This document shows, piece by piece, positions 2,071 to 4,796 of a stretch of DNA of 43,577 nucleotides. This stretch comes from Bacteroidales bacterium (GTDB lineage: Bacteria; Bacteroidota; Bacteroidia; Bacteroidales; Dysgonomonadaceae), in contig JAAYGM010000141.1 in the NCBI GenBank assembly GCA_012727735.1, forward strand, positions 1 through 43,577. Reading direction: 5' to 3'. Numbering within the stretch: position 1 is the first letter of the stretch; every line of letters starts with the position of its first letter. Below the pieces are notes generated by a model that saw nothing but the letters and a program-made list of their open reading frames with translations, was not told the DNA's origin and did no database searches. The position numbers and the translations under genes are program-made.

Positions 2071-2102
2071 TTTGCATAGTGAACATATGTTCATTACATT
2101 TG
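2071..2102 (+). promoter_or_regulatory. Bacteroidetes-type promoter of the NifX/DUF5320/Mrp operon
   Basis: TTTG (2071-2074), a 20-base spacer and TACATTTG (2095-2102) match the phylum consensus TTTG-N19-21-TAnnTTTG exactly. Transcription should start near 2107-2110, so the mRNA would begin with the small hairpin at 2108-2126. The spacer is almost filled by a perfect palindrome (separate entry). Confidence 0.7.
2080..2093. promoter_or_regulatory. Perfect palindrome TGAACATATGTTCA, ArsR/SmtB-like operator
   Basis: TGAACA-TA-TGTTCA is a perfect 6-2-6 dyad between the -33 and -7 elements. This core resembles the imperfect 12-2-12 operators (TGAA/TTCA half-sites) of ArsR/SmtB metal-sensing repressors. 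Bound protein would block RNA polymerase. No ArsR gene lies in the window, so the regulator is inferred only from the site. Confidence 0.55.
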
Positions 2103-2107
2103 TTGCG

Positions 2108-2126
2108 GCTGTAAAAATATTACAGC
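2108..2126 (+). other. 5'-end mRNA hairpin of the NifX/Mrp operon
   Basis: GCTGTAA (2108-2114), loop AAATA, TTACAGC (2120-2126): a perfect 7-bp stem at the predicted transcription start. It is flanked by longer complementary arms TATATCAGA (2056-2064) and TCTGATATA (2145-2153). It may protect the 5' end of the message or be a second protein-binding dyad. Confidence 0.4.
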
Positions 2127-2167: not shown

Positions 2168-2377
2168 ATGCCAGGATTTAACAAAAAAGGACCTGCCGGA
2201 GCGGGCGCCGCGAGCGGAAGAGGACGGGGAGGTTGTAACCCGGCCAGGAAAGGGAGAAACAACGTAGAATCGCAGGGGAGAACTGATTTGGATACTCCTT
2301 TTCAGCAAGGCTTCGGGAGGGGTTTGAGACAGAATCAGAGAAAAAGAGACGGATCCGGCAAAAGTAGATTTGCATGA
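2168..2377 (+). CDS. DUF5320-like small glycine/arginine-rich protein
   Basis: 69 residues. It begins MPGFNKKGPAGAG and continues GRGRGGCNP, the pattern of the small DUF5320-type proteins (typically MPxFDGTGPMGxGPMTGRGRGxC) encoded next to NifX/NifB-like metal-cluster proteins and Mrp ATPases in many anaerobes. No enzymatic domain is visible. One conserved cysteine follows the GRGRGG stretch. The function of the family is unknown. A strong Shine-Dalgarno GGAGGT (2158-2163) precedes the ATG, which is unusual in Bacteroidetes and may reflect acquired origin or high expression. Its stop overlaps the next start by four bases (ATGA), so the two are translationally coupled. Confidence 0.72.
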   Translation: MPGFNKKGPAGAGAASGRGRGGCNPARKGRNNVESQGRTDLDTPFQQGFGRGLRQNQRKRDGSGKSRFA

Positions 2378-2712
2378 AACAGGTGATCGCAATTCCCCTG
2401 GAAGGGGGCAGGATTTGCCAGCATTTTGGCCATTGTCAGCAGTTTTCCATTATCGAGGTTGAGGATGGAGTCATCCTGAAAGAGTCCTTTGTAACGCCAC
2501 CGCCTCATCAACCCGGTTTACTGCCTGCATGGCTGTCGGAGAGAGGCGTCACCGAAGTGATTGCAGCCGGGATAGGACAGAAGGCGATAGCGTTGTTTCA
2601 GCAGCAACAGATCAAGGTACATATAGGTGCTGAATATAAGAACCCGCGTGAGCTGGTTTCCGACCACTATCGGCAGTCGCTTGTCTCAGGAGCAAACGCT
2701 TGTAATCACTGA
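2374..2712 (+). CDS. NifX/NifB-type iron-molybdenum cluster-binding protein
   Basis: 112 residues, a single Nitro_FeMo-Co domain (PF02579). It starts IAIPLEGGRICQHFGHCQQFSIIEVEDG, with the family's HFGHC metal-site segment at about residues 19-23, then the conserved block AWLSERGVTEVIAAGIGQKAI at about residues 52-72. Related proteins carry or transfer iron-molybdenum or other metal-sulfur clusters; here no nitrogenase genes are present. The domain stands alone, as in the dinitrogenase-cofactor-like and orange-protein families often encoded with Mrp-type ATPases, one of which lies at the end of this operon. Coupled by a 4-base overlap to the upstream DUF5320-like gene. The bound metal cannot be read from the sequence. 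Confidence 0.85.
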   Translation: MKQVIAIPLEGGRICQHFGHCQQFSIIEVEDGVILKESFVTPPPHQPGLLPAWLSERGVTEVIAAGIGQKAIALFQQQQIKVHIGAEYKNPRELVSDHYRQSLVSGANACNH

Positions 2713-2787: not shown

Positions 2788-3081
2788 TTGCCAAGCTCGC
2801 TCGCTCTCCCGGAAAAGAAAGAGCTGGCCACAGAGAATGGTAACGATGTCCCCTCAATGATGCTGGATCGTAGCTCTGTCGCGTTTCAGGATCTCTTCGA
2901 CAAGGCGGATCTTGTCATCTCAAACGGTCAGGGAAACCTGGAGGGGTTGATAGCGGTGGAGAAGAGCGCTCTCTTTTTCCTGCTGATGGTGAAGTGTGAT
3001 GTGATTGCCGATTTATTGGGAGTGAAGAAAGGAGGCTTCATCTGCTACGAAAAAGAAGGAAGCAATAACAACAATAATTAA
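2788..3081 (+). pseudogene. C-terminal fragment of a DUF89/ARMT1-like metal-dependent phosphatase
   Basis: The 97-codon ORF matches only the last third of DUF89 (damage-control phosphatase) proteins. From about residue 17 it reads NGNDVPSMMLD, then DKADLVISNGQGNLEGL and FFLLMVKCDVIADLLGVKKG, which carry the family's conserved C-terminal Asp, the GQGN turn and the KCxVxAxxLG block. Full-length proteins are close to 280-300 residues. The missing N-terminal part is not found in any frame in the 75 bases back to the NifX-like gene, so this is a 5' deletion rather than a simple frameshift. Homology becomes recognisable near base 2830; upstream bases look unrelated. The ATG at 2788 is probably not a real start. 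The fragment ends in an Asn-rich tail coded by AAC/AAT repeats. Confidence 0.72.
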
Positions 3082-3148: not shown

Positions 3149-3667
3149 ATGATTGTACCTATCCTACTGTATGGCTCACAGATGCTCCGGCGCAACACCT
3201 CTGATGTGGTTGAAGAGGACAGGCCCGGAGAGATCTCAAGAAACATGTTCGAGACGCTTAAAAGAGCGGAGGGGATAGGATTGGCGGGACCTCAGGTAGC
3301 CATCTCAAAAAAGATATTTATTATTGATACCACGCCGATGCATGGAGGTGATCCTTATTTCAAAGCGGTGGAGAAGGTTTTTCTTAATCCTCAGATTGTT
3401 GAGATTGAAGAGGAAGAGGTGGCCTTTAACGAGGGATGTCTCAGCATCCCCGGGATATTCAGTGAACTTCAGAGACCGGATAAGATTTATGTGAAATATC
3501 AGAACCTGGCTTTTGAGACGGTGGAAGAGGAGCTGCAGGGGTTGGAGGCGAGGATCTTTCAGCATGAGTATGATCATCTCGACGGTATCCTCTTCATTGA
3601 CCATATGTCCGGTTTACAAAAACGATTGATACAGGGAAAACTAAAAAAAATAAAGAAAAGAAGATGA
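3149..3667 (+). CDS. def: Peptide deformylase (divergent, probably second copy)
   Basis: 172 residues. It removes the formyl group from nascent N-terminal methionine and needs a bound Fe2+ or Zn2+. All three motifs are present: motif I as GIGLAGPQ (residues 42-49), motif II EGCLSIPG (95-102, Cys97 a metal ligand) and motif III QHEYDHLDG (138-146, His139 and His143 ligands, Glu140 catalytic). Motif I is normally GxGLAAPQ; the second Ala is Gly here. The gene is coupled to the downstream mrp gene by a 4-base ATGA overlap and sits in a metal-cofactor cluster rather than beside fmt or ruvX-like housekeeping genes. This suggests a paralogue, but the rest of the genome is not visible. A C-terminal Lys/Arg tail (KKIKKRR) is present. 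Confidence 0.9.
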   Translation: MIVPILLYGSQMLRRNTSDVVEEDRPGEISRNMFETLKRAEGIGLAGPQVAISKKIFIIDTTPMHGGDPYFKAVEKVFLNPQIVEIEEEEVAFNEGCLSIPGIFSELQRPDKIYVKYQNLAFETVEEELQGLEARIFQHEYDHLDGILFIDHMSGLQKRLIQGKLKKIKKRR

Positions 3668-4701
3668 ACGTAAAAAGCAAAACAGCAAAAGCGGCTTTTG
3701 AAAAGACGAAGCTGCCTCATATAAAAAACATCATCATCGTGGCATCCGGAAAGGGAGGAGTAGGCAAATCGACCGTGGCGGCAAGCCTCGCTCTGTCGCT
3801 GGCCAGAGAGGGCTATGCTACCGGACTGCTGGATGCCGACATCCATGGGCCCTCGGTACCCACCCTCTTCAACCTGAATCATCAGCGTCCGCTCTCGATC
3901 GAGAAAGAGGGGAAGACCTGGATTGAGCCTTTCGACCGCAACGGGATCAGGGTGATCTCAATCGGTTGCTTTATCGACCCCTCACAGTCTCTTCTCTGGC
4001 GCGGTCCCATGGTGACGAATGCGCTGAAACAGCTGCTCAATGATACCGACTGGGGAGTACTGGATTATCTGATCATCGACACACCTCCCGGCACCGGTGA
4101 TGTGCATCTCACCCTGCTGCAGTCTTACGAAATCACGGGGGCTATCGTGGTGACCACCCCGCAGGCTATTGCGCTTGATGATGTAGTCAAGGCCATCGGG
4201 ATGTTCAATAACAAGAATGTGGCGGTGCCTGTGCTGGGGATCGTGGAGAACATGTCCTGGTTCACCCCTACACTGCATCCCGAAGAGCGCTATTTCCTGT
4301 TTGGGGAGGGCGGAGGTGAGAGACTGTCACAGCGGTTTCATATCCCCCTGATCGCACAGATCCCGATGAATGAGCATATACGACAGAGCTGCGATGAGGG
4401 CTCACTCGATTCGCTCTTTCAGGATGAGCAGATCCGCCGGTCATTCACCGGCTTGGTGGAGTCGGTACTGGCTCAGCGGGATTTAAACATCTTAGAGAAT
4501 ACGACAAAGAGAGCCAACGCTACGCCCCCCCAGGAAAACGTAAAGCATCGGCCTCTTCTCTTTCACGCCTCCCTAGAGGGAGAGCGTGTAGGTGATGATC
4601 CCCTCTGCAAACTTATGAATGAACAGTCCCGTTGCAGCCAGGAAACCGGAGACGATACTGATACTGAAGGTGACCGCATAGATGATGCCATCTATAAATG
4701 A
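3664..4701 (+). CDS. Mrp/NBP35-type P-loop ATPase with a non-homologous antisense-derived tail
   Basis: 345 codons. Residues about 20-275 are an Mrp/ApbC-type Fe-S carrier ATPase: deviant Walker A GKGGVGKST (residues 29-37), LLDADIHGPSVP (55-66), IDTPPGTGDVHLTL (138-151) and VENMSWF (194-200). The N-terminal DUF59/MIP18 domain of housekeeping Mrp is absent, and no CxxC cluster-bridging motif is present after NMSW. It therefore looks like an accessory Mrp paired with the NifX-like protein. From about residue 277 (base 4492) the tail is hydrophilic, resembles no Mrp, and lies exactly antisense to a ZIP transporter remnant. The original stop seems to have been lost and the frame runs through the remnant. 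The start overlaps the def stop (ATGA). Confidence 0.85.
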   Translation: MNVKSKTAKAAFEKTKLPHIKNIIIVASGKGGVGKSTVAASLALSLAREGYATGLLDADIHGPSVPTLFNLNHQRPLSIEKEGKTWIEPFDRNGIRVISIGCFIDPSQSLLWRGPMVTNALKQLLNDTDWGVLDYLIIDTPPGTGDVHLTLLQSYEITGAIVVTTPQAIALDDVVKAIGMFNNKNVAVPVLGIVENMSWFTPTLHPEERYFLFGEGGGERLSQRFHIPLIAQIPMNEHIRQSCDEGSLDSLFQDEQIRRSFTGLVESVLAQRDLNILENTTKRANATPPQENVKHRPLLFHASLEGERVGDDPLCKLMNEQSRCSQETGDDTDTEGDRIDDAIYK

Positions 4702-4737
4702 GTGTATGATACAATGGAGAGTGCCGTTAAGCCCGAT
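4492..4737 (-). pseudogene. Remnant of a ZIP-family divalent metal transporter
   Basis: The minus strand read from base 4737 downward gives about 54 codons with clear ZIP features. These include HCIIHSFIDGIIYA (histidine-rich transmembrane helix IV with the HSxxDG signature), a Gly/Ala-rich helix, and LFIHKFAEGIITYTLSL (helix V with the HKxxEG signature). An in-frame TAG (4573-4575) interrupts it. Then GGVKEKRPMLYVFL continues the family pattern before a stop at 4492-4494. Both ends are missing compared with a full ZIP of roughly 250-270 residues. The remnant lies under the 3' end of mrp on the opposite strand, and 60 bases downstream of pnuT on the same strand. The ORF track misses it because of the stop codon. 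Confidence 0.68.
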
Positions 4738-4796
4738 TTAAATTTAATATTTTTTAAACTGGTAATGTTTCCCAAACTGCTATCTGAATAATAAAG

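Follow-up and report, generated by a model that had tools for sequence, protein, structure and literature searches.

Which protein reads the perfect 14-bp palindrome that occupies a promoter of this Dysgonomonadaceae genome, and what does it control there? In the window, by which we mean the whole 43,577-nucleotide stretch that was analysed, the palindrome TGAACATATGTTCA occupies positions 2080..2093 (no strand assigned) and is, from its sequence and from comparison, a predicted operator. On the plus strand it is preceded by a -33 element, TTTG (2071..2074), and followed 1 bp past its end by a -7 element, TACATTTG (2095..2102). The spacer between the two elements was measured at 20 bases (TTTG-N20-TAnnTTTG), and the arrangement described in the earlier note, a perfect palindrome inside the spacer of a consensus promoter, was confirmed on the sequence. 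The published sigma-ABfr consensus of Bacteroides is TTTG / TAnnTTTG (PMC7366714). Elsewhere in the window, no further exact or one-mismatch copies of TGAACATATGTTCA were found. A second dyad, GCTGTAA-N5-TTACAGC, at which the transcript had been suggested to begin, is present on the plus strand of the 5' leader (2108..2126, arms at 2108-2114 and 2120-2126) and could fold, but it is not kept in the orthologous leaders. As a conserved element it was rejected, and it is probably incidental.

The genes behind this promoter, all on the plus strand, were identified from profile matches. The first encodes a DUF5320 protein of 69 aa (2168..2377; PF17253, E 7.4e-07). It is followed by a NifX-like protein of the Nitro_FeMo-Co type that resembles the ORP domain of MrpORP (2374..2712; PF02579, E 3.1e-18; NF041136, E 2.5e-33), the C-terminal remnant of an ARMT1/DUF89 damage-control phosphatase (2788..3081; positions 235-308 only of the PF01937 profile), a peptide deformylase (3149..3667; PF01327, E 3.5e-46), and an Mrp/ApbC-type Fe-S carrier ATPase (3664..4701; PF10609, E 2.6e-86, residues 20-268). 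The NifX-like, Mrp and deformylase assignments made earlier from the letters agree with these matches. In relatives, the DUF89/ARMT1 orthologues are full length (285-339 aa), and the Mrp orthologues measure 274-279 aa, while the window Mrp carries an anomalous C-terminal extension past about residue 275. By eye only, a ZIP-transporter-like remnant can be seen on the minus strand at 4500-4760 (antisense HKFAEGIITYTLSL); the Mrp frame continues into it, giving the anomalous 70-residue tail.

Related genomes hold a longer version of this operon. Its order is NifX-DUF5320-NifX2-DUF89-MinD2-MinD1-radical SAM-PDF-Mrp, behind LpdA-LplA, with some loss and scatter of genes between genomes, and the orthologous operons of G336 and G343 contain the complete ORP-type set of MinD-like ferredoxin ATPases, Mrp and NifX/ORP. 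Compared with these relatives, the window copy keeps little of DUF89 and lacks the first NifX gene, the radical SAM gene and the two MinD-like ATPases. Judged by its gene content, the window operon is a shortened copy of an orange-protein-type Fe-S module.

The promoter has been conserved along with the module. In G352 and G336, the orthologous operons keep the frame TTTGC-N4-palindrome-T-TACATTTG; G333 and contig C163 of the same genome as the window keep TTTGC-N4-palindrome-T with TATATTTG as the -7 box; in G343 the palindrome and the -7 box are kept and the -33 element is altered. The TTTGC at the -33 position thus recurs at the orthologous promoters of C163, G352, G336 and G333. The earlier note had treated lack of conservation ahead of orthologous operons as decisive against its proposal; the palindrome is kept ahead of all five, which supports the view that an operator lies inside the promoter spacer of a metal-cluster or Fe-S operon.

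The genome-wide search for the 14-mer that had been proposed returned two exact copies in the same geometry, against about 0.01-0.02 expected for 3.02 Mb of this base composition, and a reversed-pattern control returned none in the same genome. The second copy is at locus L009 on contig C163, framed as TTTGCATAC-palindrome-T-TATATTTG, with genes for a DUF134 protein and for NifX-DUF5320 diverging from it on either side. Two one-mismatch copies occur on contig C55 (L010), one ahead of DUF5320-FeoA-FeoB-DUF134 and the other ahead of an MBL-fold gene. In the shorter form TGAAC-N4-GTTCA, the genome contains seven sites, with about three expected by chance. Four of them (the window, C163 and the two on C55) are promoters of DUF134, NifX, DUF5320, FeoAB or MBL genes; the remaining three, two in open reading frames and one between convergent genes, match the chance expectation in number. 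The window itself contains no DUF134 gene, the three copies in the genome all being on other contigs, and the third of them (C141) has TGAACATAAGTTTA upstream. The genome is a draft, metagenome-style assembly with an estimated contamination of 2.16%, and contig C163 might belong to a sister strain. The DUF134 proteins of L009 and of L019 (C141) are 86% identical, and the two loci have a common gene order: sugar hydrolase, peroxiredoxin, (FAD oxidoreductase, NifX, MBL), DUF134. They may be read either as paralogous loci or as a sister strain in the assembly.

The company that the site keeps in this genome is also found across the family and the phylum. Among 61 family genomes, there were eight exact 14-mers, all at promoters of DUF134, NifX or DUF5320 genes, and of the family DUF134 genes tabulated, 22 of 24 had a site of at least 11/14 within about 310 bp upstream; for the many DUF134 genes of family f18, a clear match was not found upstream. 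NifX-like and DUF134 genes also occurred together: both were present in 22 of the 61 genomes, NifX only in 1, DUF134 only in 3, and neither in 35 (Fisher 2e-12). The set of named Bacteroidota consisted of the 80 best query matches and is for that reason biased to close relatives. A perfect TGAAC-N4-GTTCA lay within 400 bp upstream of 51 of its 79 DUF134 genes, and a match of at least 9/10 was found for 66 of 79, the other 13 scoring 8/10 or less. First-order Markov resampling gave 0.045 on average and never more than 1. When all gapped palindromes with 5-base arms were ranked de novo, this pattern came first (51), the next unrelated one reaching 6-7, and once the proteins were grouped at 75% identity, it was still present upstream in 18 of the 23 clusters. 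Other parts of the same loci seldom had it (0.014 per 400 bp), and where they did, the site often preceded NifX, DUF5320, MBL, peroxiredoxin or Dps-like genes. One copy, adjoining a DUF134 locus (L191:1417), is followed after 226 bp by a gene recognised by eye as Dps-like. The position relative to the promoter recurs as well, since TAnnTTTG begins exactly 1 bp past the palindrome in 18 of 56 DUF134 upstream sites, as in the window; at numerous loci, it is the -7 box alone that adjoins the site, or a pair of sites flanks the -10 element. In the distant genome G087, two exact copies lie just upstream of a DUF134-DUF5320-NifX-ferredoxin operon. The exact 14-mer taken alone was discarded as a phylum-wide marker of DUF134: in a sample of 297 genomes, most of its matches fell in open reading frames such as gyrA or in unrelated places, as expected of chance.

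Based on these distributions, TGAAC-N4-GTTCA is the predicted signature of DUF134 (PF02001/UPF0251). We consider that the window palindrome is very probably the operator of a DUF134 helix-turn-helix protein, which is the best explanation of the site. Comparison shows the site itself, its position in the spacer, its conservation ahead of both orthologous Fe-S/ORP-type operons and DUF134 genes, and its co-occurrence with DUF134. A palindrome that arose by coincidence and is bound by no regulator would draw on the facts that a spacer of 20 bp has a chance of about 4e-4 of containing any perfect palindrome of 14 bp and that the window contains many promoters. That the palindrome returns at DUF134 genes and orthologous promoters far more often than in shuffles contradicts this explanation, to which we attach almost no weight.

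The palindrome had originally been assigned to ArsR/SmtB, whose metal-bound or metal-released dimer would repress the operon. ArsR/SmtB operators (SmtB, CzrA and ZiaR type) are perfect or imperfect inverted repeats in promoters, with TGAA/TTCA half-sites, and the window site has this form, which is not discriminating. ArsR genes are present in the genome, and one ArsR clade, including a member from this genome, uses TGAATATATGTTCA or TGAATGTATGTTCA, one or two bases from the DUF134 site. About a dozen family genomes have such a sister site, TGAATATATGTTCA, ahead of ArsR genes (e.g., L282:1727 and L283:2064), and TGAACAATTGTTCA is found 12-14 bp upstream of two ArsR-like genes among the DUF134 loci. 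The likeness seen in the earlier note was therefore real (one base separates TGAATATATGTTCA from the window type, besides the two TGAACAATTGTTCA cases), but it pointed to the wrong protein. Of 29 regions upstream of ArsR genes, from the family or this genome, none contained TGAAC-N4-GTTCA, and throughout the phylum the site accompanies DUF134 genes. It is DUF134 that the NifX operon follows, whereas almost every genome has ArsR (58 of 61), and the same palindrome precedes DUF134 in the distant G087. Flanks of the form ATAT...ATAT, seen by eye at an ArsR gene of the same genome (L012), are absent from the window site. What the two kinds of operator share is the TGAA/TTCA inverted repeat; they differ in the invariant C...G pair within TGAAC-N4-GTTCA, and the protein families are unrelated. 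We therefore regard ArsR/SmtB as a very improbable binder, although its cross-binding at the DUF134 site is possible because ArsR operators in the same genomes differ from it by one base.

A DUF134 reading of TGAAC half-sites agrees with what can be deduced about the protein. In profile scans, this uncharacterised family has a helix-turn-helix like that of sigma-70 region 4, and the members from the window's own clade end in a CxxC...CxxC (Cys4) tail. The closest solved helix-turn-helix by sequence, and the only solved relative by that measure, is that of Bacillus subtilis DeoR (E 1e-4), with SRPT in both proteins. According to its structure, DeoR reads the half-site TTGAACA in the operator ATTGAACAAAATTTCAAT...ACATATGTTCAA (PMC11229326). 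In motif and half-site, DeoR is an independent match for the predicted DUF134 helix and its DNA. The DUF134 structure model was confident for the helix-turn-helix only, and its Foldseek matches were weak (E above 0.04) yet consistent, namely sigma region 4 and DeoR, which is among the best matches by fold. The likeness of DUF134 to this SorC-family regulator ends there. The NagB-like sugar-phosphate effector domain of about 250 residues that characterises the SorC/DeoR family was absent from DUF134 proteins (about 93-257 aa) in Pfam scans, so that the helix-turn-helix alone is common to both; in DUF134 its place is taken by a Cys4 tail or by fusion to a NifX domain, and the predicted regulon is of the Fe-S/ORP type.

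The DUF134 family occurs widely among anaerobic bacteria and archaea, and related sites were found in other phyla. Upstream of DUF134 genes on plasmids from Clostridia, Negativicutes, a spirochaete and Gammaproteobacteria lie TTGACATATGTCAA or TGGCATATGCCA-like palindromes, often paired and often over the -35 element, with a CATATG core in common with the window site. Of 13 such upstream regions, 10 contained RCATATGY, compared with 0.4 in shuffles. The 8-base core ACATATGT is common to the window site and those of other phyla, and the outer bases differ. The recognition helix is SRPT in Bacteroidota DUF134 and of the SRQT or ARTT type elsewhere, where the half-site is also different. As a further observation, DUF134 is joined in one protein with a Nitro_FeMo-Co (NifX) domain in clostridia, selenomonads and treponemes (L201, L202, L203 and L208), which suggests that this domain may be a cofactor sensor. 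DUF134-NifX modules also occur on plasmids of Providencia, Dongshaea, Aeromonas and Morganella (L206, L209, L212 and L213), accompanied by paired CATATG palindromes and by genes for a SLAC1 anion channel, a PaaI thioesterase or both.

A possible mechanism can be outlined. A DUF134 dimer would insert one SRPTxTR recognition helix into each TGAAC half-site and, once bound, would cover the -33/-7 spacer and block sigma-ABfr RNA polymerase. With the spacer blocked, the operon would be repressed, and so, in many cases, would the gene for DUF134 itself. It is from the geometry alone that we infer repression rather than activation, and the geometry fits a repressor that occludes the promoter. DUF134 might instead bind the same site and activate, for instance by unwinding an over-long spacer in the manner of MerR, or act as a dual regulator. 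As in MerR promoters, the palindrome lies between the promoter elements, and the module is plausibly required under stress. However, a gap of 20 bases between TTTG and TAnnTTTG looks ordinary for Bacteroidota, so there may be no over-long spacer to correct, which would count against MerR-like activation. The DUF134 helix-turn-helix is sigma-r4/DeoR-like and has no MerR fold, the many sites that abut the -7 box only or flank the -10 in pairs are as occlusion predicts, and a site upstream of DUF134's own gene is an autoregulatory placement. Activation by DUF134 is thus unlikely, if less so than an ArsR operator.

For repression by DUF134, the nature of the signal can be suggested with less confidence. 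The Cys4 tail and the fused Nitro_FeMo-Co domain suggest a metal-cluster or redox cue, and redox or Fe-S sensing is equally as possible as the metal response proposed at the outset. The CxxC...CxxC tail, or in Clostridia the fused NifX-type domain, might sense iron, an Fe-S or Mo-Cu cluster or the redox state, and DNA might then be released when ORP-type maturation proteins are needed.

The module itself has a known counterpart. In Desulfovibrio, the orange-protein genes form two divergent operons whose transcription depends on sigma-54 together with a cognate regulator (PMC6345978). The ORP operons and MrpORP of Desulfovibrio vulgaris resemble the present case in placing Mrp/NBP35, ORP/NifX-like proteins and MinD-like ferredoxin ATPases in a controlled module, and differ in that sigma-54 acts there, whereas here there is a sigma-ABfr promoter with a predicted DUF134 operator. 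No operator, regulon, role or DNA site of DUF134/UPF0251 was described in the open-access literature searched. We hypothesize, tentatively and with slightly more doubt than conviction, that DUF134/UPF0251 is a phylum-crossing repressor family with a CATATG-centred operator, representing a cofactor-sensing class new to description. It would control the orange-protein-type Fe-S/Mo-Cu module together with FeoAB, peroxiredoxin and Dps-like genes in anaerobes, and would sense cluster or redox status via the Cys4 tail or the fused NifX cofactor-binding domain.

These results also carry a caution, in that unrelated regulators of one genome can have operators one base apart, as with ArsR TGAATATATGTTCA and the DUF134 site. 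The NifX-fused forms suggest that DUF134 may be a sensor of a metal-sulfur cofactor. With a predicted operator, a promoter geometry and a regulon, DUF134 would pass from an unknown domain to a testable regulator of Fe-S/ORP-type metal-cluster genes.
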